Below, in pieces: positions 1 through 12,293 of a DNA stretch of 12,293 nucleotides. The stretch spans positions 1 to 12,293 of the forward strand of contig MGXX01000083.1 in NCBI GenBank assembly GCA_001801515.1, in the 5' to 3' direction. The notes under the pieces are model-generated. The model was not told where the DNA came from, searched no databases, and worked only from the letters and a program-made list of their open reading frames with translations. Position 1 is the first letter of the stretch. Each line of letters opens with the position of its first letter. The position numbers and the translations under genes were made by a program. Origin of the DNA: Gammaproteobacteria bacterium RIFCSPHIGHO2_12_FULL_38_11 (GTDB lineage Bacteria; Pseudomonadota; Gammaproteobacteria; Coxiellales; Coxiellaceae).

Positions 1-313
1 GCGCAGAAAGATAAATTTTTTTAGTGTTGGGAGATGGTGTGGTGATTGCAGTGCTGAATGTGGTGGCTTGCGTCGTTGTTCTGCTCATCGTCAGTGTCTC
101 TAAATTTTTATTTTGATGGGTGTTATTGTACAAATCGATTGTTAAGAGTTTCTTCAAAATGGCAGAAAAAATCAGCAATTCGATGAACCCAAATCCATTC
201 ATTTTTTGCATATCTTCGCACAATTTCCTAAACAGTTAGAAATTTTTTTCGTACAATGCGCCCTATAGTAATCTACTGCGCTATTTCAATTTCTATTCAA
301 GGGCGATAAAATT

Positions 314-343
314 TTGCAGCATATTCAAAAAATATGGTAAAAT
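314..343 (+). promoter_or_regulatory. Sigma-70-type promoter with extended -10
   Basis: TTGCAG (314-319) and TAAAAT (338-343) are 18 bp apart, and TGG directly before the -10 gives an extended -10 motif. Transcription would start near 350, leaving a leader of about 130 nt before the DUF4160 gene. Assigned by motif only. Confidence 0.4.
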
Positions 344-427
344 TTGTGGTTTTTTTCGTATTCGTAAAAAGTGATTTGAAAATTTTTAGAAAAAATTTAT
401 GTGAGCTTCAGTTCACCGGGAATTGCT

Positions 428-447
428 GATAAAACGAGGGTTTTATC
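428..447. repeat. Inverted repeat upstream of DUF4160 gene
   Basis: GATAAAAC (428-435) and GTTTTATC (440-447) are perfect complementary arms around a GAGG loop. It lies 36 bp before the start codon at 484, inside the transcribed leader if the promoter at 314-343 is right. It could be an operator or an RNA hairpin. No T-run follows, so it is not a terminator. Confidence 0.4.
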
Positions 448-483
448 GAATTTGGTTGTTATGAATGGGTGAGGATGGCAAAA

Positions 484-720
484 ATGCCAACTGTATTGAG
501 AATTAAAGGCTATCGTTTCTTCTTTTTCAGTTTAGAAGGAAGCGAACCGCCACACATACACGTGGAACATGACGACAAAGTGGCGAAGCTTTGGTTAAAA
601 CCTATCAACCTGGCAAGCTCGTCCGGTTTTAGAAGTCACGAGTTGACTGAAATTAGGGCGATTGTTATCGAAAACAGTAAAATATTTTTGGAGAAATGGT
701 ATGAGCACTTTGGCCGTTAA
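484..720 (+). CDS. DUF4160 domain protein
   Basis: A 78-residue protein with the hallmarks of the DUF4160 family: it opens MPTVLRIKGYRFFFF, continues with EPPHIHVEH, and has the C-terminal pattern ELTEIRAIVIENSKIFLEKW. The molecular function of the family is not established. I chose ATG 484 because GGTGAGG (468-474) is 9 nt upstream and because family members start at MPTVLR. The alternative starts at GTG 469 and ATG 475 would lack a properly spaced Shine-Dalgarno. The gene overlaps the following DUF2442 gene by 20 bp, so the two are almost certainly co-transcribed and probably translationally coupled. Small DUF4160/DUF2442 pairs recur widely in bacteria and resemble toxin-antitoxin modules in layout, but that role is an inference here. 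Confidence 0.85.
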   Translation: MPTVLRIKGYRFFFFSLEGSEPPHIHVEHDDKVAKLWLKPINLASSSGFRSHELTEIRAIVIENSKIFLEKWYEHFGR

Positions 721-946
721 ATTTGATGATCATGCAGTTGATGTCAGTTTTACAAAAAATGCGCTGCATTTGGTATTAGCCGACGGTAGAGAAGTTTCTG
801 CGCCACTCGAATGGTTTCCAAAATTACGTGATGCGACTGAAAAAAATCGCGGTAATTGGCGCTTAATAGGCAATGGTATTGGCGTGCATTGGCCAGAAAT
901 TGATGAAGATATTGCTGTTGGTACGATTATGAAAGGGCATGATTAA
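701..946 (+). CDS. DUF2442 domain protein
   Basis: An 81-residue protein that fits DUF2442. It opens with an 'AVKFDDHAVDVSFTKNALHL' type N-terminus, followed by LADGREVSAPLEWFPKL, then NWRLIGNGIGVHWPEIDEDI, which is the usual family signature. The family is thought to be a small beta-rich fold, often partnered with DUF4160, and its biochemical role is unknown. ATG 701 is preferred over the in-frame ATG at 662 because GGAG (690-693) sits 7 nt upstream and the conserved domain begins right after it. The 20-bp overlap with the preceding gene implies coupling. It ends 9 bp before the stop of the convergent 603-aa gene, with no terminator between them. Confidence 0.85.
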   Translation: MSTLAVKFDDHAVDVSFTKNALHLVLADGREVSAPLEWFPKLRDATEKNRGNWRLIGNGIGVHWPEIDEDIAVGTIMKGHD

Positions 947-955
947 CGGGGTAAA

Positions 956-2767
956 TCAAAAACCGGCCACTTCTGAAGATTGCTCCAGGGAACTGAGCAA
1001 CTGCGAGACTGGTGTGATTTCGAAGGCTGCGTAAGTTTTCCAAGCGTGATGCTTTTGTTCGACATAAGTTTTGAAAACAGTACAAACGACGTTAGTGGCG
1101 GTCGCCGACTTCGATGTGACGGGGTTGATGCCCGCCGCAAATTTAAATCCCCAACCATCAATGCACGACGGAATTGAAAGAGAGACATCAACGAGGACAT
1201 CGCGAATAACACTATAATCACGGCGATCATAATCATTGAAGCGGGACTGCCGAGGAGCAGCGCGAAGCTCTTTTTTTTCTACTACTACTAAACAGTAAGT
1301 ACCTTGACGCATACCTTGTCTATAAGTTTCTGAGGCGAAACGTTGTGGTGTACCCACGCCCATTGACCAGGTGATATCGCGCTTTTTGGTATTTGTATCA
1401 GAGCCGGCGCGCTCCATCGTCCGATATTTTTCATGGCCAATATCAAGCGCGTTTTGAATATGATTGGGATTAATAATGATTTCGTCATCCATGTGTAATT
1501 TTAATTCTTCCCGATAACGATTCATTTTTTCAAATAAATTTAATTGATTAAATGGTTTATTGCGGCACGCATCGGTTTGCGTAAATGAAGTATCAGTGGC
1601 GAGTATTGCATCATCGAGTGCTTGTTGTGTGGTAGTGGTGATGATTCTATGCAGTGCATCGATTTCTGCAGGCGTTGCTGATTCAATCGCCTCAAAATAG
1701 GGCCTTGTATCAAATTGATTGTCAATTTGGGCCTGGAGATGGGCTTTCTCAAGGATTTCGATGCTTTTATTTTCATCTGTTTCACTGCGACTTTCGATAA
1801 ACGCTTTTGTATAAGCTCGCACATTGTTTTGTGCTTTTTTGATTTTTTCTTCGATGTCTTTATGTGTAGCGGTATAGTTGGGATCATCTTGTTTCAATTC
1901 TGATTGCAGAGTAATTAAGCGAATGATTTCGGTTTTTTGTTTATTCAAATAATTTTGTAAGCTTTTGGTGTAAATTTCTTGGTATTGTCTTTTCATTTCA
2001 CCCATCCCATCGATAGGCTTGCCTTCTAAATCCACTGTTAAATGCGCAAATTGTTCCGCCATCATTTTACACATATCATCGTCACCACAAGCGAGCGCGG
2101 CTTGAAAGGGGGTGAGTTGAATTCGATTACGCGCGGCAGCTAAAAGACCAGTGAATGGCGCGCCAACTGAGCTGTGTGTGCGAAGCGCATTAGGAATTTC
2201 GCTTAAGTTCAATTTTTTTAATAAATAAAGTGGATTTGAATTTAAAATGTGTTTTACCTTGTCTTCATCAGCACGAACAACAGCATCAATCACTTGATCA
2301 AGGCTCATTTCAATCTGTGCAAAAGTAGATGCTCTATTGATGGCAAGGGCGTAGTGGCCTAATTCTTCTACTTGATCGTGTTGCAAAATACCAAGCGTGA
2401 ATTGGAAAATGACTTTCCAGACGTCAGGGACCATCCATGTGATATGCGCTTCCACTCCATCTGTAGGCATGACGCCACGACACCAAATATTGCCCTGAGA
2501 AAATAAAATATTCATCAAAAACCATGCGCCGCTTATGGTTTGAGTTTGAGTTGATTTTTTTTTGTAAATTATTTTTCTGTTGCGCGTCATTGATGCGTCA
2601 AATTCATCCTGCTTGGCATTCAAAAGAACGGATTGGTCAGTGAGCGATTTTGAGCTGATGATTTGTCTTTTTTGGCCATCAACATCGGTAACCGGCGTGA
2701 CACAAATATGGCGACTTAGGTTTGTTGTTAATTGTGAGGCATTTGTGGCAGTGGCGCTTCGGTTCAT
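956..2767 (-). CDS. Large ankyrin-like, coiled-coil protein of unknown function
   Basis: A 603-residue protein with no signal peptide and no clear membrane segment. I do not recognise a named family. Residues 155-182 (SLDQVIDAVVRADEDKVKHI and following) and 217-240 (LTPFQAALACGDDDMCKMMA) look like degenerate ankyrin-type helical repeats. Residues 258-325 are rich in K, E and Q and look coiled-coil forming. The C-terminal third (about 465-603) mixes basic stretches and hydrophobic strands. Large soluble proteins of this build are common among candidate effectors of Legionella and Coxiella, but no secretion signal can be proven here. The start ATG overlaps the stop of the upstream 190-aa gene as ATGA (2764-2767), so the two are translationally coupled. 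A TGA at 956-958 ends it, almost touching the convergent DUF2442 gene. Confidence 0.8.
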   Translation of the reverse strand: MNRSATATNASQLTTNLSRHICVTPVTDVDGQKRQIISSKSLTDQSVLLNAKQDEFDASMTRNRKIIYKKKSTQTQTISGAWFLMNILFSQGNIWCRGVMPTDGVEAHITWMVPDVWKVIFQFTLGILQHDQVEELGHYALAINRASTFAQIEMSLDQVIDAVVRADEDKVKHILNSNPLYLLKKLNLSEIPNALRTHSSVGAPFTGLLAAARNRIQLTPFQAALACGDDDMCKMMAEQFAHLTVDLEGKPIDGMGEMKRQYQEIYTKSLQNYLNKQKTEIIRLITLQSELKQDDPNYTATHKDIEEKIKKAQNNVRAYTKAFIESRSETDENKSIEILEKAHLQAQIDNQFDTRPYFEAIESATPAEIDALHRIITTTTQQALDDAILATDTSFTQTDACRNKPFNQLNLFEKMNRYREELKLHMDDEIIINPNHIQNALDIGHEKYRTMERAGSDTNTKKRDITWSMGVGTPQRFASETYRQGMRQGTYCLVVVEKKELRAAPRQSRFNDYDRRDYSVIRDVLVDVSLSIPSCIDGWGFKFAAGINPVTSKSATATNVVCTVFKTYVEQKHHAWKTYAAFEITPVSQLLSSLEQSSEVAGF

Positions 2768-3336
2768 GATGACAATCCCGTTAATAATGAGGCATTTATT
2801 TTTTTACAGATAAGGTCGCGTACTGATTTTTTCTTAAAATCCGCAGGCAGAGAGAAAGAGGTAGGTGTCCGCGTTCTGTTTTTTGAAAGAATATAATCTC
2901 GTAATTCAACGGCATGCTCGCGATTCCATGCCCATAATACTTTTCCATGCCGTATTTTCCACTGAAAAAATGCATCGGTGGGCCAGCGTAAAAAATGCTT
3001 TTTTCTTAATAAACAGTGATCGCATATCGCTGTTCCATTGTCTATGCTTTCGTTTCCTGTCCATCTTGAGGTGGGTTGATCATCAGGAGCGGCAGATAAA
3101 TAACTCGCGTCTGGTTCATGCAATCCTGGAAAATAAACGGCATAATAGTCGACACCCACTGTTGTAGGAACAGAAAAACATAAGCCAAAACTTGGATGTT
3201 TTTCAAATAATGGAATATCTTTTTTGCAAATTTTTTTGGAAATGCCTGAAATAAAAATAGCTTGTTTTGCGCAGGTTGGACAAATAATAGCTAAAATAAT
3301 AGGACGTGGTTTATTTTGTGAAAAAAGCAATGACAT
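2764..3336 (-). CDS. Putative zinc-ribbon protein, unknown function
   Basis: A 190-residue protein with two CxxC pairs, C19-PT-C22 and C105-DH-C108, spaced as expected for one split zinc-binding site. The middle (45-75) holds strand-like hydrophobic stretches including YYAVYFPGLHEP. A tryptophan-rich region, RWPTDAFFQWKIRHGKVLWA (117-136), is followed by WNREHAVELRDYIL. I recall similar motifs in uncharacterised bacterial proteins, but I cannot name a domain. The start ATG at 3336 is supported by AGGTG about 8 nt upstream on the minus strand. It is the first gene of a two-gene operon with the 603-aa protein, joined by a 4-bp ATGA overlap, so the two products probably work together. Zinc binding is predicted, not shown. 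Confidence 0.8.
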   Translation of the reverse strand: MSLLFSQNKPRPIILAIICPTCAKQAIFISGISKKICKKDIPLFEKHPSFGLCFSVPTTVGVDYYAVYFPGLHEPDASYLSAAPDDQPTSRWTGNESIDNGTAICDHCLLRKKHFLRWPTDAFFQWKIRHGKVLWAWNREHAVELRDYILSKNRTRTPTSFSLPADFKKKSVRDLICKKINASLLTGLSS

Positions 3337-3420
3337 TTAAATTTCACCTGTGAGGCTTCCTTGCGACAGTTTCAACTGACAAATTTAGGTTAAATAGCTT
3401 ATTTTTTAGCTTCGTTTGCA

Positions 3421-3510
3421 TTGTATCAAGCTCTCCTTAAGTGGGCAATTCAATTGTATGAATTTGGTTTCGATCGTGAAAAGGTTGAAGCGATATTTCG
3501 CAAGCATTAA
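3421..3510 (+). pseudogene. Possible 3' remnant of a degraded gene
   Basis: A frame open from 3394 reads LYQALLKWAIQLYEFGFDRE and then KVEAIFRKH before TAA 3508-3510. It has natural-looking composition but no start codon with a ribosome binding site. The pattern LYExGxxxxxVxxIF vaguely resembles the C-terminal part of Rpn-type (PD-(D/E)XK) nuclease/transposase proteins. It is most likely a leftover tail of a lost gene, and chance cannot be excluded. Confidence 0.25.
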
Positions 3511-3601
3511 TCTTTCCTTGAAATAAGGAAAGATTTATTATAATCTTTACTTAATATCAGGATAGATTTAGTCGAATCTATCCTTAGTTTAAGGAAAGAT
3601 T
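3509..3601 (+). repeat. Array of three inverted repeats, 33-bp period
   Basis: Three 27-bp inverted repeats start at 3509, 3542 and 3575, exactly 33 bp apart. Each has an 11-nt left arm of the type AATCTTTCCTT and a right arm of the type AAGGAAAGATT, around 5-nt loops. Unit 1 (3509-3535) is perfect over 11 bp, unit 2 (3542-3568) is degenerate, and unit 3 (3575-3601) has one mismatch. The right arm of unit 2 (3559-3568) also pairs perfectly with the left arm of unit 3 (3575-3584). The last arm contains the Shine-Dalgarno AAGGA (3591-3595) and ends one base before the ATPase start codon. A multi-site operator or an RNA switch controlling the ATPase gene is the natural reading. Confidence 0.85.
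3518..3544 (+). promoter_or_regulatory. Possible promoter of the AAA+ ATPase gene
   Basis: A perfect -10 hexamer TATAAT lies at 3539-3544, across the junction of repeat units 1 and 2. TTGAAA at 3518-3523 is the best -35, but the spacer is only 15 bp. Transcription would start near 3551, so repeat unit 1 would overlap the promoter and unit 3 would lie in the leader RNA. Confidence 0.4.
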
Positions 3602-4861
3602 ATGATCGAAAAAGAACTGCTTGAAATGTTATTGGGTGAGTTTCGTGATAAATTACAATATGTTAGCATTATTCGCCGAAATGCTGTTTTTCCGGTAGCA
3701 GATAACAAGATCAAAGTTGCTATTGGCATGCGGCGCGCAGGCAAAACATCATTTTTACTTCAAACAATACAATCCTTACTGGCTGAAGGTATCCCGATTA
3801 CGCAAATTTTGTATATCAATTTTGAGGATGATCGATTAATGCCGTTGACCCGTGAAAAATGCGCGAAACTTATCGAAGCTTTTTATACTTTGCATCCTGA
3901 AAATCATGATCACCGATGTTATTTTTTTCTGGATGAAATTCAAATGGCGCCGGATTGGGCGATTATCATTCGTCGTTTCCACGATACCAAAAACGCGGAT
4001 ATTTACTTATCGGGCTCATCGGCAAAATTGTTGAGTAAAGAAATTCATACCAGTTTGCGAGGACGTTCAATATCAACTGAAATTTGGCCGTTGAGTTTTA
4101 AAGAATTTTTAACAACAAGGAAAATAGATCATCAGTCGGATTTATTTTCCCTTAAAAAACAAGATCAATTAAAAAAATATTTTGAAACGTATTTGATGGG
4201 TGGCGGATTTCCAGAGGTGATTGATTTTGATTCTGATGTACGTATCAAAACGCTGCAAGAATATATTGATGTTGTTATTTACCGCGATATCATTGAGCGT
4301 CATGGTGTAAAAAATACGACGCTATTAAAATATTTAATTCTTTTTATTATTCAAAATAGCGGCGCATCATTTTCAATTAATAAATTTTATAATGATGTTA
4401 AATCACAAGGTTATCAAATAAACAAAGATGCTTTATATGATTATATGCACTATATCGAAGATGCGTATTTGGCTTTTTCAATTGGTCTTTATGATAGATC
4501 ATTGCGTAAGGTTCAAACTAATCCAAAAAAAGTTTATGCGATTGATCCTGGTTTAATTAATGCGGTGACATTAAATAAGCAATATGATTTTGGTCGATTA
4601 TTTGAAACGGTTGTTTATTTGGATTTAAAGCGACAAGGATGTAAAGTGAATTATTATTTAACACATAAACGTTTTGAAATTGATTTTCTAGCGCAAACAA
4701 TTGATGGCCGGCAAAAATTAATTCAAGTATGTTGGGATGCTTCAGATAAAGATACGTTTGAACGCGAGGAACGTGCTTTATTAGCGGCAAAAAAAGAATT
4801 AAATATTGAAGGTGAGATAATAACACTCAGCAGCTATTTGAAAAATGGTATTATTTTTTAG
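3602..4861 (+). CDS. AAA+ ATPase with DUF4143 C-terminal domain
   Basis: A 419-residue member of the AAA_14/DUF4143 family of P-loop ATPases, cytoplasmic, with no agreed function. The Walker A motif GMRRAGKTS is at 42-50, Walker B is YFFLDEIQ (107-114, D111 and E112), a sensor-type LSGSSAKLLS is at 136-145, and LRGR (152-155) may hold an arginine finger. GGGFPEV (200-206) is typical of the family. The C-terminal part resembles a restriction-endonuclease-like fold, with E335, the EID around 359-361, and IQVCW at 374-378 where an active nuclease would have E-x-K; I infer it is catalytically dead. ATG 3602 has AAGGA 6 nt upstream, inside the third repeat of the palindrome array. The gene stands alone and overlaps the convergent 2TM gene by 11 bp. 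Such ATPases are often mobile accessory genes. Confidence 0.9.
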   Translation: MIEKELLEMLLGEFRDKLQYVSIIRRNAVFPVADNKIKVAIGMRRAGKTSFLLQTIQSLLAEGIPITQILYINFEDDRLMPLTREKCAKLIEAFYTLHPENHDHRCYFFLDEIQMAPDWAIIIRRFHDTKNADIYLSGSSAKLLSKEIHTSLRGRSISTEIWPLSFKEFLTTRKIDHQSDLFSLKKQDQLKKYFETYLMGGGFPEVIDFDSDVRIKTLQEYIDVVIYRDIIERHGVKNTTLLKYLILFIIQNSGASFSINKFYNDVKSQGYQINKDALYDYMHYIEDAYLAFSIGLYDRSLRKVQTNPKKVYAIDPGLINAVTLNKQYDFGRLFETVVYLDLKRQGCKVNYYLTHKRFEIDFLAQTIDGRQKLIQVCWDASDKDTFEREERALLAAKKELNIEGEIITLSSYLKNGIIF

Positions 4862-5111
4862 CCTGTTCTTTTAGTTTTTTATATTCCTCATCAACAGATT
4901 TCCCATGAAAAACTTGCAAATATTGTATAACCAATCCCAGTCCCCAGCCCAAGATAACCCACAGCGGCCAGAAATGACCTTGTCCTGTGAAATACCAAAC
5001 AGCAATTAAAAATAAATTAATTACAATATAAGATTGAAAATTTCGACGAAAGCCTAATCTGCCTTTTGCTATTTTCCAGAGCAAGTGGTCTTTTTTATTT
5101 TCAGTGTTCAT
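4851..5111 (-). CDS. 2TM domain membrane protein
   Basis: An 86-residue protein matching the 2TM domain family. It has an N-terminal charged segment (LWKIAKGRLGFRRNF, 11-25), a first hydrophobic helix (about 28-41, IVINLFLIAVWYFT), a short GQGHFWPLW turn, and a second helix (about 49-65, ILGWGLGLVIQYLQVF). A charged cytoplasmic tail rich in K and E follows. The family occurs as a stand-alone inner-membrane protein or fused to regulators; its function here is unknown. ATG 5111 has GGAG 8 nt upstream on the minus strand. Its 3' end overlaps the convergent ATPase gene by 11 bp. It runs divergently from groES, with its start region close to the heat-shock promoter. Confidence 0.85.
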   Translation of the reverse strand: MNTENKKDHLLWKIAKGRLGFRRNFQSYIVINLFLIAVWYFTGQGHFWPLWVILGWGLGLVIQYLQVFHGKSVDEEYKKLKEQAKK

Positions 5112-5156
5112 TCCTTGATCTCCGAGTGATTGTTTAAGAAATCATATCAGTCAGCC

Positions 5157-5184
5157 CTTGAATTTCCAAGCATTGCCCTCATCT
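5157..5184 (+). promoter_or_regulatory. Sigma-32 heat-shock promoter of groESL
   Basis: CTTGAAT (5157-5163) matches the sigma-32 -35 consensus CTTGAAA in 6 of 7 bases. After a 13-bp spacer, CCTCATCT (5177-5184) matches CCCCATNT at 7 of 8 positions. The predicted start of transcription is near 5191. The position directly before the chaperonin operon agrees with known heat-shock control in gammaproteobacteria. Confidence 0.8.
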
Positions 5185-5190
5185 CATTTT

Positions 5191-5212
5191 CATCAGGACG
5201 GTTGTTCTGATG
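5191..5212 (+). promoter_or_regulatory. Hairpin at the predicted groESL mRNA 5' end
   Basis: CATCAGGAC (5191-5199) can pair with GTTCTGATG (5204-5212), a 9-bp stem with one G-U pair and a GGTT loop. It starts where sigma-32 transcription is predicted to begin, so the mRNA would open with a stem, a known way to slow 5'-end decay. It leaves the ribosome binding site at 5224-5230 free. Confidence 0.55.
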
Positions 5213-5237
5213 AGAAAATAATTGAGGAGAATGAAAC

Positions 5238-7243
<2,006 letters not shown>

Positions 7244-7341
7244 GACAGTATCGGGTCAGTGTGAGTTTTACTTGCACTGGCCTCAATTGTCCAAGTTATT
7301 TCGTACATGTTCCTTATATTTCATAAAACTTTTACCCCAAT

Positions 7342-7371
7342 AAAAAAACCCCGCTAAAGCGGGGTTTTTTT
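7342..7371. terminator. Bidirectional intrinsic terminator
   Basis: CCCCGC (7349-7354) and GCGGGG (7359-7364) pair around a TAAA loop, and seven A and seven T residues flank them (7342-7348, 7365-7371). The stem is therefore perfect with a U-tract on either strand. On the plus strand it ends the groESL operon; on the minus strand it would end the proposed small RNA. Confidence 0.93.
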
Positions 7372-7456
7372 AAAGCATTAAACGAAAAATGTTTAGCTTT
7401 AGTCGAGGGCTGAACGTTTACGCCTAACGCTGGTAATATCAATGTCGGTTGATGTA
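7342..7456 (-). ncRNA. Candidate small RNA, about 115 nt
   Basis: On the minus strand a promoter with a perfect TTGACA is followed by about 115 nt ending in a perfect intrinsic terminator, and the stretch between is full of stem-loops. A 5' hairpin has TTGAT (7449-7453) with ATCAA (7438-7442) around a 6-nt loop. A second stem has AACGTT (7413-7418) with AACGCT (7426-7431) around a 7-nt loop. A third has AAAGC and TAAAC (7372-7383) with GTTTAGCTTT (7391-7400), a 10-bp stem with a 2-nt bulge. No known RNA family was recognised: it lacks tmRNA, 6S, 4.5S or GGA-repeat (RsmY-like) signatures. The only frame through it would begin at TTG 7463, inside the -10 box, so it is unlikely to be translated. 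Confidence 0.55.
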
Positions 7457-7462
7457 AAGTCA

Positions 7463-7492
7463 ATCCTACTCCTTAAAAAATAATGTTGTCAA
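7463..7492 (-). promoter_or_regulatory. Promoter of the candidate small RNA
   Basis: Read on the minus strand, TTGACA (7492-7487) is a perfect -35. TAGGAT (7468-7463) is a 4-of-6 match to the -10 consensus after an 18-bp spacer. Transcription would start near 7456. An inverted repeat (7504-7539) lies just upstream, centred about 65 bp before that start. Confidence 0.55.
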
Positions 7493-7503
7493 GAAGTTAA
7501 TCA

Positions 7504-7539
7504 AAACAGTGTCAGATTTTATATTTTCTGACCCTGTTT
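7504..7539. repeat. Inverted repeat upstream of proS and of the small RNA promoter
   Basis: AAACAGTGTCAGA (7504-7516) and TCTGACCCTGTTT (7527-7539) pair at 12 of 13 positions around a 10-nt AT loop. The loop carries TATATT (7520-7525), which with TTAATC (7497-7502) is a weak candidate proS promoter. AGTGTCAG (7508-7515) can also pair perfectly with CTGACACT (7547-7554), giving a competing structure. It may be an operator placed between the two divergent transcription units. Confidence 0.55.
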
Positions 7540-7624
7540 ACTGATGCTGACACTTTCGCGCTTGCATTCACTCACTAATATGATTGAAAATAAACCTTTT
7601 TCACATTCTAAAGGAACGACTAAC

Positions 7625-8908
7625 GTGCTCACCAGTCAATTTTTATTAGCAACACTTAAAGAAACACCAGCTGATGCCGAATTAATTAGTCATCAGTTGA
7701 TGTTGCGTGCGGGACTTATTCGTAAATTAGCAAGTGGATTGTATACGTGGCTACCGTTAGGTGTGCGGGTATTAAAAAAAGTAGAAAATATTGTCCGCGA
7801 TGAAATGAATCGTGCGGGCGCACTGGAAATTTTAATGCCTGCTGTTCAGCCAGCGGAATTATGGATTGAATCAGACCGTTGGGAAAAATATGGCAATGAA
7901 TTATTAAAAATAAAAGATCGCCATGAGCGTGAATTTTGTTTTGGTCCAACGCATGAAGAAGTGGTGACACATTTGATGCGTAATGAATTAAGCAGTTATA
8001 AACAATTACCGATTAATCTCTATCAAATTCAAACAAAATTTCGTGATGAGATTCGTCCTCGGTTTGGCGTGATGCGTGCACGTGAATTTTTAATGAAGGA
8101 TTCTTATTCATTTCATGTCGATACGGATTCACTGAAAGAAACTTATCAGGTGATGTATGACGCTTATACAAAAATATTTACGCGTTTAGGATTGCAATTT
8201 CGCGCGGTGTTTGCAGACACTGGGCAAATTGGTGGCGCGTTCTCACATGAATTTCAGGTGATAGCAGAATCGGGCGAAGATATTATTGTTTATAGTGATG
8301 GCAGTAATTATGCGGCAAATATTGAACGTGCTGAAAATTTAGAAAAAACACAACCGGTCAAAGAAGGCGATAATAGCCCTGATGGAAAAGGTAAATTATA
8401 TTTTGCGCGTGGTATTGAAGTGGGCCATGTATTTCAGTTGGGTGATAAATATAGCAAAGCAATGAATTTAACTGTGCTTACCGAAGAAGGAAAAGCGCTG
8501 CATCCGCAAATGGGTTGTTATGGTATTGGTGTATCACGAATTGTTGCTGCGAGCATTGAACAAAATCATGATGATAAAGGCATTATTTGGCCGGATGCCA
8601 TGGCACCATTTCAAATTGCGATTGTCCCCATGCAAATGCATAAAGCGCATCGTGTGCGCGAACAGGCCATGAAATTGTATGATGAATTAAAATCATTGGG
8701 CTTTGATGTGTTATTGGATGATCGTAAAGAACGTCCTGGTGTGATGTTTGCAACGATGGATTTAATCGGTGTAGCGCATCGCATTGTGATTGGCGAGCGT
8801 GGAATCGATGAAGGAACAGTAGAATATAAACATCGTACAAATGAGGCAGTAGAAAATATTGCATTTGAAAAAATCATTCCGTTGTTGCAAGAGCGTATTA
8901 GGAAATAA
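7625..8908 (+). CDS. proS: Prolyl-tRNA synthetase lacking the editing domain
   Basis: A class II synthetase that charges tRNA-Pro with proline. With the start at GTG 7625 it has 427 residues, against about 570 for the usual bacterial enzyme. It opens [20 protein letters not shown], as in ProRS, with AAGGA (7611-7615) 9 nt upstream; the frame extends 27 codons farther up without family similarity. [13 protein letters not shown] (38-50) belongs to the motif 1 region, GPTHEE is at 107-112, motif 2 is [18 protein letters not shown] (138-155), and motif 3 is GCYGIGVSR (297-305). The C-terminal anticodon-binding domain covers about 328-427. Between [10 protein letters not shown] (228-237) and [10 protein letters not shown] (261-270), where the YbaK-like editing insertion normally sits, there are only about 25 residues. 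Both flanks are intact, so this is a clean domain loss as known in alphaproteobacterial ProRS, not a broken gene. Confidence 0.95.
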
Positions 8909-9434
8909 CACACTCTAGACAATTAAACTTAGATTCCTTGATGGACTTTTTTTTGAGGGTTGCGCTGGGTTTTGCTGATTCAAAAAACGCGACCGAATGA
9001 TCTATCAACGGTGATTGCGTTTTTACGCGTCTGACAGGTGAGGCAGGCGATATGGGTGGCTTTAAAAAGGTGCATTGTGGTTTGTAGTTAATAGGTGAGG
9101 TAATGTTTATTTCTTCAGGGCTAAAAGCAGCCTGATGTTTTAGAAAAATATTATTCAACCATTTTTCATATGTCGTATTATCGTCCTTCGGCGGTATAAT
9201 ATTTCTGAAAACCAACTGCCGGACTATCAGTTCATTTGTGTTGCCATATCTTGGATTATTTGCAATAAAAGTTTGGCTCAGGTTGCCGGCATAAATGTAG
9301 TTTAATTGAACTTCTTGAGGACGATTCGAATTGTATTGCACGAAAAAAATGATATTGTTGTTTTTAGCATAAGCTGTTTGAAGTAATTGGGGTGGAATGT
9401 CTTCTTCATAGATGAAGCAAGTTGTTCGGGACAT
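8898..9434 (-). CDS. Hypothetical protein, unknown function
   Basis: A 178-residue protein I do not recognise. It opens [20 protein letters not shown], has an asparagine- and tyrosine-rich first half ([34 protein letters not shown]), and a Pro/Ser/Lys-rich, probably disordered second half (about 115-170) ending NCLECVIS. No signal peptide, membrane segment or catalytic motif is visible. It appears to be real: AAGGA lies 8 nt before ATG 9434 and a near-consensus promoter is at 9468-9496. Its 3' end overlaps the convergent proS by 11 bp, and it is divergent from tolA, sitting where tolQ and tolR would be expected. It could be a lineage-specific accessory gene or an effector; the sequence gives no direct support for either. 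Confidence 0.65.
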
Positions 9435-9467
9435 AAGGCAATTCCTTTTCTATATGATCCGATCTCC

Positions 9468-9496
9468 ATTATCCACTCGATTTGTGTATATTTCAA
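9468..9496 (-). promoter_or_regulatory. Promoter of the 178-aa hypothetical gene
   Basis: On the minus strand TTGAAA (9496-9491) and GATAAT (9473-9468) each match consensus at 5 of 6 bases and are separated by an ideal 17 bp. Transcription would start near 9461, giving a leader of about 27 nt with the AAGGA site. A short palindrome (ACCAA-G-TTGGT, 9496-9506) adjoins it on the tolA side. Confidence 0.6.
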
Positions 9497-9524
9497 CCAA
9501 GTTGGTGAGCTATAGGATTTTAAC

Positions 9525-10406
9525 ATGATGCGTCTGCCTGAAAATTATCGTAAACCCTGCCTCATCGCCATTTTGGTGCATGTGGTTGTGTTAATGCTAT
9601 TGCTCTTTAATTTTGCAGCTTCACAGTTTCGTGCGCCTCCGTCGTCATCTCCACAGAAAATTATTCATGCAACGGCGATTATTCAGCATTCAGAACAGCC
9701 CAGAGTTCCGAGCGTTAGTGAGCAGAAGCTTTCAGAACAGCTCAGAGCCCAGAGTGTGAGCGAGCAGAAGCTACAAAGCGCGCGCGAGAATCATGCGAAA
9801 ATGCTGCAGTTAGAAAAAGTAGAAACAGCGAAACTACAAAAATTGGCTGCATTAAAAGCCAGTGAAGCAAAAAAAGCAGCGCAGGAAAAACAAAAAAAAT
9901 TACTTGCACAAAAAACCTTAAAAAAAGAAATAGAAGCGCGCGCGTTAGCAAGTGCGGAATTGGCAAAGCAAGAAAAACAAAAAACATTAAAAGCGTTAGC
10001 AAAAAAAAATAAATTACTTGCTGAACAAAAAAAATTACAAGAACAATTAATGCAGCAGCAGCTAAACAGTGAACAAAAAAACATTACACAAGTGCAATCC
10101 CTCGCGCAACAAGGTGTTATTGATAAATACAAAGCACAAATTTTAGCGACAATTCAATCAAATTGGCGAATTGATAAAGTGGACAGCAAATTAAAATGTA
10201 TTTATTCGATTGCATTGGCGCCAAATGGTGATGTGTTGTCTATTAATTTAGTGAAAAGCAGTGGTGATACGGCCTTGGATCAATCAGCGCAACAAGCGAT
10301 TCAGCAGTCATCACCGTTGCCGGTGCCAAGCAATCCTTCATTGTTTGGCAATTTTCGTCAATTGGTTTTGACCTTGAGTCCGCAGGGGTATTTACAGAAT
10401 ACGTGA
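9525..10406 (+). CDS. tolA: TolA, Tol-Pal system inner-membrane linker
   Basis: A 293-residue TolA, shorter than E. coli TolA (421). It is anchored in the inner membrane and spans the periplasm, passing energy from TolQR to TolB-Pal at the outer membrane during cell constriction. The single membrane helix is residues 12-32. Residues 85-190 are an Ala/Lys/Glu/Gln-rich coiled coil. The C-terminal domain (about 195-293) has the TolA/TonB-like features IDKYKAQILATIQSNWRID, APNGDVLSINLVKSSGD, and LPVPSNPSLFGNFRQLVLTL. Between helix and coil, residues 56-69 and 70-83 are a tandem 14-residue repeat (SEQPRVPSVSEQKL, SEQLRAQSVSEQKL) derived from a dispersed DNA repeat. ATG 9525 has TAGGA 7 nt upstream. 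tolB follows after 76 bp. tolQ and tolR, normally just upstream, are absent here, and no strong promoter was seen. Confidence 0.93.
   Translation: MMRLPENYRKPCLIAILVHVVVLMLLLFNFAASQFRAPPSSSPQKIIHATAIIQHSEQPRVPSVSEQKLSEQLRAQSVSEQKLQSARENHAKMLQLEKVETAKLQKLAALKASEAKKAAQEKQKKLLAQKTLKKEIEARALASAELAKQEKQKTLKALAKKNKLLAEQKKLQEQLMQQQLNSEQKNITQVQSLAQQGVIDKYKAQILATIQSNWRIDKVDSKLKCIYSIALAPNGDVLSINLVKSSGDTALDQSAQQAIQQSSPLPVPSNPSLFGNFRQLVLTLSPQGYLQNT
9689..9772 (+). repeat. Tandem 42-bp repeat inside tolA
   Basis: Two copies, 9689-9730 and 9731-9772, are 42 bp each and match at 35 of 42 positions. Both begin TTCAGAACAG and end GAGCAGAAGCT. Their length keeps the reading frame, giving 14 residues per copy. 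The core CAGAGxxCCGAGCGTTAGxG of copy 1 recurs at 11822-11851 in non-coding DNA (25 of 30 identical), and copy 2 shares the flanking GCTACxAAGC with that locus. Confidence 0.85.
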
Positions 10407-10482
10407 TCTTCAATACTCTTCTGATTTTCTTGTTTTTGAGTATAAAACGAGTAATATTGTTCAAAATATTGCGAGGTTTGTG

Positions 10483-11811
10483 ATGCGATTCTGTCGGAAA
10501 ATTCAATTGTGGCTAATCGCTGGGCTGTTTTTTCAGTTGCCGGCACAAGCGGCGTTACAGCTTGAATTAACACAAGGTATGAATGCAGCCATTCCAATTG
10601 TAATTGTCCCTTTTGCAAACCAAACCAGTAATGTGTCGGGTAACACAACTTTGTCGCAAGTCATTTCAAATGACTTGCAAAATAGCGGCGAATTTAACGT
10701 AAAAGCACCGGGAATGTTGGCGTCATTGCCCGTTCAAGTTTCACAAATTAATACAACTTATTGGCAAAAGCAGGGTGCCAACGATATCGTGATTGGACAA
10801 GTTCATCCGTTGAGTGCTGGAAAATATGAAGTGCTGTTTCAGTTAGTTAATTTATATGCGCCCGTTAATCCGCAAAATCCCAATGCAGCTGTTTTATTAA
10901 ACCAAGGATTCACAGTGAATCAAGCGGGCATGCGCGGACTCGCCCATCACATTAGTGATATGATTTATCAAAAATTAACAGGGGTTCGCGGTATTTTTTC
11001 AACAAAAATCGCCTACGTGTTGGCGCAACATTATAATAACGGATCGGCATATTATCGGCTTATTGTTGCCGATGAAGACGGATTTGGTCCACAAACATTG
11101 CTGTCATCTGGGCAACCCATTATGTCGCCGACTTGGTCACATGATGGACATAGTTTAGCTTATGTTTCTTTTCAAGGACATTATCAGAATATTTATTTGC
11201 AAAATTTATTATCTGGTAGTCGTCAAGTTGTTGCCAATTTCCCTGGAATTAATAGTTCACCGGCTTTTTCGCCGAACAATCGACGTCTTGCGATGGTGTT
11301 AACGTTGAATACGGGAAATCCCAATATTTATGTTATGGATTTGGCTACGCACCACTTAACACAAATCACAAATGATACGGCAATCGATACTGAACCAACT
11401 TGGTCACCGGATGGTAGCGCATTGTTTTTTACGTCGAGTCGTGCAGGGGGTCCTGAGATTTATCGTTATAATTTTGCAGATCATCAGGTTGCACGTGTGA
11501 CCTTTGATGGTGGATATAATGCAAGGGCTTGTTTAACGCCGCATGCAAATACATTGGTTATTATTCATGCTGATGGTTCGGGTTATAATATTGCAAAACA
11601 AGATTTAAATTCAGGTCGCTTAAGTATTTTGACAGGTGGCGGGTCTGACGACTCGCCGAGTTTGGCGCCGAATGGAAAAATGATATTATACGGAACACGA
11701 TTTGCTGGACATGAAATGCTGGGGCTGGTGTCGATGGATGGTCGCGTGAAATTGCGTTTGCCATCGCAGCAAGGCGATGTGCAAGATCCGTCATGGTCAC
11801 CTTTTTTATAG
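10483..11811 (+). CDS. tolB: TolB, periplasmic Tol-Pal component
   Basis: A 442-residue TolB, a soluble periplasmic protein that binds Pal and the TolA C-terminal domain. Residues 1-23 are a Sec signal peptide (MRFCRKIQLWLIAGLFFQLP, then AQA before the cleavage site). The mature N-terminus ALQLELTQG is where the TolA-binding box lies in E. coli. The N-terminal domain runs to about 170 and ends with the typical GIFSTKIAYV (170-179). A beta-propeller follows with repeated signatures: SPTWSHDGHSLAY (215-227), SSPAFSPNNRRLA (258-270), TEPTWSPDGSALFF (303-316), and SPSLAPNGKMILYGTR (391-406). QDPSWSPFL closes it. I chose ATG 10483, with GAGG (10473-10476) 6 nt upstream; GTG 10480 would be only 3 nt away. 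Length is near the family norm. Confidence 0.97.
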   Translation: MRFCRKIQLWLIAGLFFQLPAQAALQLELTQGMNAAIPIVIVPFANQTSNVSGNTTLSQVISNDLQNSGEFNVKAPGMLASLPVQVSQINTTYWQKQGANDIVIGQVHPLSAGKYEVLFQLVNLYAPVNPQNPNAAVLLNQGFTVNQAGMRGLAHHISDMIYQKLTGVRGIFSTKIAYVLAQHYNNGSAYYRLIVADEDGFGPQTLLSSGQPIMSPTWSHDGHSLAYVSFQGHYQNIYLQNLLSGSRQVVANFPGINSSPAFSPNNRRLAMVLTLNTGNPNIYVMDLATHHLTQITNDTAIDTEPTWSPDGSALFFTSSRAGGPEIYRYNFADHQVARVTFDGGYNARACLTPHANTLVIIHADGSGYNIAKQDLNSGRLSILTGGGSDDSPSLAPNGKMILYGTRFAGHEMLGLVSMDGRVKLRLPSQQGDVQDPSWSPFL

Positions 11812-11819
11812 GCACTGCG

Positions 11820-11865
11820 CTCAGAGCCCCGAGCGTTAGCGAGTGGAAGCTACGAAGCACGAAAC
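11820..11865 (+). repeat. Dispersed repeat copy between tolB and pal
   Basis: Non-coding DNA here starts CTCAGAGCCCCGAGCG and continues TTAGCGAGTGGAAGC, TACGAAGCACGAAAC. It is homologous to the tandem copies inside tolA (9689-9772), matching copy 1 at 25 of 30 positions in the core. It includes CGCTC/GAGCG arms (11818-11822, 11831-11835) and a GAAGC-TAC-GAAGC direct repeat. It sits in the 117-bp gap of a likely co-transcribed unit. Confidence 0.75.
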
Positions 11866-11928
11866 TAAAATAATTTTAAAATGTAGTTTAATTTTTTTTA
11901 AACGTAAGACATCAAGGAGATAAAAAAT

Positions 11929-12293
11929 ATGAAAAAAGCATTAGTGAGAGTAGCAGTCATTGCCGTGGCGGCAATCGGCATGATGGCTTTGTCATCGTGT
12001 TCAAAAAAACCGAGTGCAAACATGAATGATAGTGGTTCGGGTTCCGATGGCAGTCAAACGTACGGTATGAATGCTGGCAACACAGATTCAGACGGTTTCA
12101 AAATCAATTCGATGAAAGCACCTTCAAATCAAACTTATTATTTTGCGTTAAACAGCAGTGACTTGCGTTCGCAGGATATGACAGCACTGATGAACCAAGC
12201 GAATTATTTGGCATCACATGCGTCTGCGCATATTCGTTTAGAGGGTAATACTGATAATCGTGGTAGCCGTGAATACAATATTGGATTAGGATG
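11929..12293 (+). CDS. pal: Pal, peptidoglycan-associated lipoprotein (5' part)
   Basis: The first 121 codons of a gene that runs off the right edge. Pal is an outer-membrane lipoprotein that binds peptidoglycan through its OmpA-like domain and engages TolB. The N-terminus MKKALVRVAVIAVAAIGMMA is a lipoprotein signal peptide with lipobox LSSC, so C24 would be lipidated. A Ser/Gly/Asn-rich linker (about 28-65) follows, then the OmpA-like domain: YYFALNSSDLRSQDM, and RLEGNTDNRGSREYNIGLG, which matches the canonical Pal stretch GHTDERGTPEYNxxLG with N in place of H. ATG 11929 has AAGGAG (11914-11919) 9 nt upstream. It lies 117 bp after tolB with no terminator between, so co-transcription is likely. 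The peptidoglycan-binding residues beyond this point are not in the window. Confidence 0.95.
   Translation, partial: MKKALVRVAVIAVAAIGMMALSSCSKKPSANMNDSGSGSDGSQTYGMNAGNTDSDGFKINSMKAPSNQTYYFALNSSDLRSQDMTALMNQANYLASHASAHIRLEGNTDNRGSREYNIGLG

Follow-up and report, generated by a model that had tools for sequence, protein, structure and literature searches.

A phased palindrome array ending on the start codon of an AAA_14-DUF4143 ATPase gene: a conserved, gene-specific and probably autogenous DNA operator

The stretch of DNA analysed in the present study (hereafter the window) comprises all 12,293 bases, positions 1 to 12,293 of the forward strand, of contig MGXX01000083.1 from Gammaproteobacteria bacterium RIFCSPHIGHO2_12_FULL_38_11, and the coordinates of the palindrome array and ATPase gene described below refer to it. 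The window carries a gene for a 419-residue ATPase with AAA_14 and DUF4143 domains, the start codon of which (ATG at 3602) directly follows the last of three 27-bp palindromic units that recur at an exact 33-bp period (spacings of 33 and 33 bp). The parts of the array and of the gene are as follows.

3509..3535, strand not assigned: palindromic unit 1 of the proposed operator, dyad centre 3522, arms pairing at 11 of 11 positions
3518..3523, + strand: -35-like TTGAAA, assigned from relatives, on the unit 1 dyad at a phase of -1.5 nt as in the relative L002
3539..3546, + strand: -10-like region, either TATAAT (3539-3544) or TAATCT (3541-3546), near the -10 phase of relatives
3542..3568, strand not assigned: palindromic unit 2, dyad centre 3555, arms pairing at 8 of 11 positions
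3575..3601, strand not assigned: palindromic unit 3, dyad centre 3588, arms pairing at 10 of 11 positions, adjoining the start codon
3591..3595, + strand: Shine-Dalgarno sequence AAGGA, within the right arm of unit 3
3602..4861, + strand: AAA_14-DUF4143 ATPase, 419 residues (PADLOC PDC-S01), from Pfam and PADLOC models
4316..4576, + strand: predicted winged-helix domain, residues about 239-325, the proposed DNA-binding part, from predicted models
4577..4858, + strand: C-terminal alpha/beta domain with the PD-(D/E)XK-like residues E335, D361 and Q375

An earlier note on this DNA, made from the letters alone, had described the three palindromes with their fixed period ending on the ATG, a perfect pairing of the right arm of unit 2 (3559-3568) with the left arm of unit 3 (3575-3584), a single mismatch between the arms of unit 3 itself, the Shine-Dalgarno sequence in the last arm and a TATAAT box near units 1 and 2, and every one of these details was borne out on re-examination, the cross-unit pairing being 10/10. 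Unit 2 is the weakest palindrome of the three. The linkers between the units are also dyads and half-sites alternate in orientation about every 16.5 bp, so the array is in effect a row of alternating half-sites. The top phased palindrome pair of the entire window falls within the array with a score of 24.5, compared with 19.0 for the best pair elsewhere and with a mean best-pair score of 19.04 (S.D. 0.64, maximum 20.5) in 40 whole-window shuffles, confirming that the palindrome array is a real feature.

A Pfam scan of the window ATPase returned AAA_14 at 120.8 bits (cut-off 27) and DUF4143 at 70.2 bits (cut-off 28.1), and seven PDC-S01 models of PADLOC matched the protein with a best E value of 2.6e-108; PDC-S01 is a candidate phage-defence family, and an anti-phage role of the window ATPase is accordingly putative. 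We take COG1373 to be the COG of this family. The nearest solved structures to the model of the winged-helix domain were repressors of the Fur, PerR and PadR type, whereas the model of the whole ATPase lay nearest to the archaeal ATPases 2qen and 2fna (15-16% identity), with STAND and Orc1/Cdc6 proteins among the next-nearest; to our knowledge no DNA site has been described for 2qen, 2fna or STAND proteins. On fold matches of predicted models, an AAA+ module is thus followed by a winged helix as in the STAND/Orc-type P-loop ATPases, a clade that we take to be the one named MNS. The C-terminal domain, which we assume to have the PD-(D/E)XK fold and motif, carries C377 at the position of the motif lysine that an active nuclease of this type would show, and lysine occupies that column in only 7 of 137 sequences. 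A sequence search of solved structures with the ATPase gave no match, and neither did searches of PHROGs and NCBIfam.

A protein search, in which 7,997 candidates were scored, yielded 6,856 relatives, and a genome scan supplied the best 80 loci (L001-L080) of 386 relatives, in records titled as gamma-, alpha- and deltaproteobacteria, Chlamydiae, Dependentiae, Verrucomicrobia, Lentisphaerae, Margulisbacteria and others. The array recurred repeatedly in the 62 upstream regions from these loci that were inspected. In a first test, in which seven of the 80 loci were left out for want of a usable start and the window was added, phased palindromes preceded 28 of the 74 ATPase genes and 2 of 322 other open reading frames at the same loci; a combined score, computed for 73 of these 74 regions, peaked at a lag of 33 in 39 and of 34 in 19, and exceeded the 99% shuffle level in 54. 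A larger test began from 257 genes that passed filters for score, coverage and upstream length, reduced to 208 by removal of repeats and to 200 at 90% identity, with 300 neighbouring open reading frames drawn at random from L001-L080 as controls and an array called at a z of 2.5 or more. These data show a significant phased array upstream of 138/200 ATPase genes compared with 9/300 controls, and the best lag (24-45 bp allowed) was 32-34 bp in 153/200 and 46/300 respectively. From the most distant to the closest relatives by model score, the fraction with an array was 14/28, 35/57, 28/37, 31/40 and 30/38. Eight close members received no array call, of which some (e.g. L009) show a degenerate array by eye and others none, and the count of 138 is probably conservative. 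The conserved period that the earlier note had proposed to look for upstream of homologues was therefore found, and the outcome that it named as refuting, orthologues lacking palindromes, did not occur, since most relatives have them. The array is a widely conserved feature and is not local to the window.

The relationship of the array to the promoter was examined in 105 arrays with two or more units, using the opposite strand as a control. A sigma70-like promoter was present on the coding strand of 58/105 arrays and on the opposite strand of 35/105, and the arrangement of a -35 box within 3 nt of a dyad with a -10 box 19-23 nt downstream of it was found in 37/105 compared with 6/105, although both of these limits were set after the -10 peak had been seen. 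The best -10-like hexamer peaked 20-22 nt from the dyad (44/105 compared with 12/105), whereas the broader linker window for the -10 box that had been asked about originally showed no enrichment (48 compared with 43). In seven arrays (L117, L137, L138, L142, L212, L229 and L260) the dyad-centred -35 box is TTGACA, which indicates that the consensus box forms the core of the palindrome. This layout is as expected of a repressor that excludes RNA polymerase. In the window, the promoter scan by its own rules called none within the array, and the -35 and -10 boxes listed above, with a spacer of 15 bp from TTGAAA to TATAAT or of 17 bp to TAATCT, are assigned by analogy with relatives.

Among subfamilies the spacing is kept while the half-site sequences differ widely. 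The three scored members in genome G002 have the half-sites ATCTTTCCTT, CCTCTCATTG and GTCTCCATTG, and the four in genome G110 have TTTAGCCTTCC, CTTCATATTG, CTGTTCATTC and GTATACGATA. Over all gene pairs from 137 of the 138 arrays, the operator match rose with protein identity from 1.9/8 below 20% (12 pairs) to approximately 6/8 above 60%, and similar ATPases share operators even across records titled as different phyla. For 52 pairs of co-resident paralogues in 21 genomes, with genome labels assigned by hand, the match was 3.13/8 compared with 3.56 in identity-matched pairs [P(lower) 0.031]. The difference lay in the 14 same-genome pairs at 35-50% identity (3.07/8 compared with 4.46 expected, P 0.0035), with no difference in the 34 pairs below 35% (2.85 compared with 2.96) or the four above 50% (5.75 compared with 5.49). 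As the 35-50% band was chosen after the pair table had been seen and the pairs are not independent, this is a weak hint that co-resident paralogues actively drive their operators apart. It is firm, however, that operators are not shared within one genome, which argues against a single shared host factor, as this would predict sharing.

No non-ATPase neighbour gene recurred widely within 5 kb (or less at contig ends) of the gene in the 73 of the L001-L080 loci with a usable start; the six most recurrent, each in at most 10/73 loci, were antisense frames that lie over the ATPase gene or over a fragment of it. The ATPase is the only product common to these loci, which follows from how they were searched for. 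Additional family ATPases lie nearby in several loci. Searches of 39 relatives' genomes with the exact operator-class pattern found 11 places in eight genomes, few in any one of them and with no control matches, seven of them at ATPase promoters; these counts use the exact pattern only, because with a 6-base-loop pattern control matches equalled or outnumbered true ones in 6/11 genomes, although that pattern had already picked up three of the four places away from ATPase promoters. A scattered mobile repeat, the other outcome that the earlier note had named as refuting, was not seen either: the exact places in the relatives' genomes are few and lie mostly at ATPase promoters. The four places elsewhere may be remnants or extra targets. 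With gene names read from translations, these are three units at about 4587-4680 of L105 that adjoin a murE-like start, with a frame of about 20 codons read by eye on the other strand; three units ahead of a Kef-like antiporter frame at about 4115-4213 of L104; two units at about 3989-4050 of L103, with another ATPase-like gene on one side and a transporter-like gene on the other; and a site at 2451-2474 of L106 beside a C-terminal ATPase fragment. In viral contigs, 44 stretches matched a pattern and none was confirmed; 19 phage records gave a match. Genomes G014, G592, G594, G595, G608, G612, G616, G620, G623, G628 and others each have 11-20 PDC-S01 matches, with at most 20 candidates scored per genome, which is a very high paralogue load.

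Because the operators are specific to each gene, no further gene is widely shared by the loci and the ATPase has a predicted winged helix, we consider it most likely that the array serves as an autogenous DNA operator to which the ATPase binds by its winged helix. The suggestion of the earlier note that the phased sites bind a protein is favoured by the comparative evidence, and its further 'perhaps the ATPase itself' is what we infer from these three lines together. In the proposed mechanism, dimers of the ATPase (an AAA+ module, winged helix and degenerate PD-(D/E)XK-like domain) would use the winged helix to bind the palindromic units. The most frequent layout places the centre of one unit at the -35 box and the following unit over the -10 and start region, so that co-operative occupancy of units 33-34 bp apart would exclude RNA polymerase and thereby repress the gene; a unit adjoining the ATG would be a further block. 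Nucleotide state or oligomerization would set the affinity. Each ATPase gene would move with its own operator, and co-resident paralogues would have operators different enough to avoid cross-regulation.

Several observations qualify this interpretation. Using mutual information, partial correlation and a branch-wise parsimony test on 137 of the 138 arrays, the dyad register having been moved by hand from linker to unit in four entries (window, L005, L007 and L017), we found that residues 275, 276 and 279 of the predicted recognition helix rank high in covariation with the operator, but so do residues elsewhere; the enrichment of the recognition helix has a permutation p of 0.14 and the signal is dominated by kinship. 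Moreover, the 33-bp rule is not universal among DUF4143 ATPases. In a sample of 10 upstream regions from 321 matching plasmid records (the start of the Enterococcus faecalis gene being guessed), only that of Listeria seeligeri pLIS51 reached a z of 2.5, with z 2.7, a best lag of 28 and, by eye, a single long palindrome; the best lag was 32-34 in 1/10, at z 1.8. In the phylum of G014, for which 27/30 loci had a usable start, 10/27 genes reached a z of 2.5, being 5/6 of those above 250 bits and 5/21 of those below, and among weak relatives 3/11 reached the threshold. By eye, other layouts (one long palindrome or repeated motifs) are visible in the distant members L333 (upstream of 1444, pLIS51), L320 and L326, which suggests self-sites in a different geometry.

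The earlier note had also raised an RNA switch, in which units 2 and 3 form alternative leader hairpins that either mask or expose the Shine-Dalgarno sequence. The region does give a strong RNA fold (-47.7 kcal/mol, z -6.4), but this is not telling because any such DNA palindrome would fold. The AAGGA does lie within an arm of unit 3 and, with the TATAAT at 3539 as the -10 box, the leader would take in all of unit 3 and roughly half of unit 2, so that a local effect on translation could operate in the window. An RNA-level constraint is, however, not supported by the arm mismatches, which on the mRNA would be G-U as opposed to A-C in 41 compared with 41 cases in first units and 48 compared with 42 in last units of 137 arrays. 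In addition, unit 1 of the window lies upstream of the proposed -10 box, the dyads on the -35 box in 37/105 arrays lie outside the transcript and, in the 50 arrays with the best -10 box 19-23 nt from a dyad, the end of this box is a median of 27 nt from the ATG, making most such leaders too short for a full unit. There was also no Rfam match at the gathering score in the window, and we regard the switch as improbable.

Only slightly less remote, in our estimation, is that a host regulator, and not the ATPase, recognizes the sites. It is common for repressors to bind palindromes that overlap promoters, and binding by the ATPase is something that we infer; but as co-resident paralogues have different operators, such an explanation needs a separate dedicated regulator for each gene, and it also sits badly with the sharing of operators by similar ATPases across records titled as different phyla and with the lack of a widely recurrent neighbour. 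Equally as improbable as the RNA switch is that the array serves mobility or replication as a cis element (an end, iteron or origin-like site) on which the ATPase acts in the manner of Orc1/Cdc6, its overlap with the promoter being secondary. The ATPase model does resemble DNA-bound Orc1/Cdc6, the spread of the gene is patchy and multi-copy, and four operator places lie off an intact family promoter, one of them beside an ATPase fragment; a passage of one study also lists COG1373 among genes inferred to have been transferred horizontally between gut genera (PMC10782964). However, no arm-like match (two mismatches or fewer) occurs between the array and position 5389, so that the window gene is not flanked on both sides, and exact operator places are few per genome, with the placement tied to the -35 and -10 boxes in the 37/105 arrays noted above.

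Autogenous operators of the kind that we favour have counterparts among partition ATPases. As described in passages of PMC8465637, type Ia ParA proteins are ATPases with a flexible winged helix-turn-helix that bind inverted repeats of their own promoter co-operatively, in a proposed assembly of three dimers, and co-resident RepA paralogues of repABC systems bind their own palindromic operators specifically, with ADP, according to a passage of PMC4492784. The array resembles these in its inverted repeats within the gene's own promoter, to which the AAA_14 ATPase would bind. It differs in the class of the ATPase, AAA_14-DUF4143, with no ParA-type domain in the Pfam scan; in the absence of a widely recurrent partner gene in the 73 loci, where ParB itself was not searched for; and in having two or three palindromes spaced at 33-34 bp, one dyad of which coincides with the -35 box. 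The AbiEi antitoxin of the AbiE type IV toxin-antitoxin system also acts by negative autoregulation through inverted repeats (PMC7319586, in part), but AbiE is bicistronic in the passage seen of PMC3985639, whereas the ATPase here is a single gene. Regulation of the AAA_14-DUF4143 gene is most likely autogenous, a variant of that of ParA and RepA in a different ATPase family. Searches of open-licence papers on the family gave, among titles and the beginnings of abstracts, none on such operators; the relevant passages of PMC3861447, PMC4406477 and PMC2635572 give just the name of the domain or COG, and those on PDC-S01 in PMC12988326 make no mention of any operator.

Elsewhere in the window, genes with DUF4160 and DUF2442 domains overlap head to tail at 469-946, a pair that may be akin to a toxin-antitoxin module. 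Adjoining frames of 603 and 190 residues on the minus strand (956-2767 and 2764-3336) gave no Pfam match at an E value of 0.001. A 43-nt repeat, present as two copies in a presumably tolA-like frame (9698-9782) and again just after a presumably tolB-like gene (11819-11861), shows identities of 65% and 84% to its reference copy and may be a repetitive element that was inserted here.

According to the part of PMC12988326 that deals with it, PDC-S01, of which 29,494 were counted in bacteria and 9,986 in archaea, is the fourth most common defence across prokaryotes, while most PDCs still await experimental validation, and in a passage of a rumen survey it is the most frequent individual locus (PMC13356809). 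The array offers a way in to a very common candidate virus-defence family that awaits experiments. More speculatively, an entire lineage of PDC-S01 ATPases might consist of self-addressed, mutually insulated autoregulators. Each gene would then form, with its promoter and private operator, a portable cassette, and the ATPase bound at the operator would itself act as the sensor; infection or a changed nucleotide state would release it and so increase its own dose, while genomes would collect several such cassettes and drive their operators apart. The predicted DNA targets beside each gene would provide a directly testable biochemical activity for PDC-S01, and the ATPases with their arrays would make up a natural set of protein-operator pairs, perhaps free of cross-talk.
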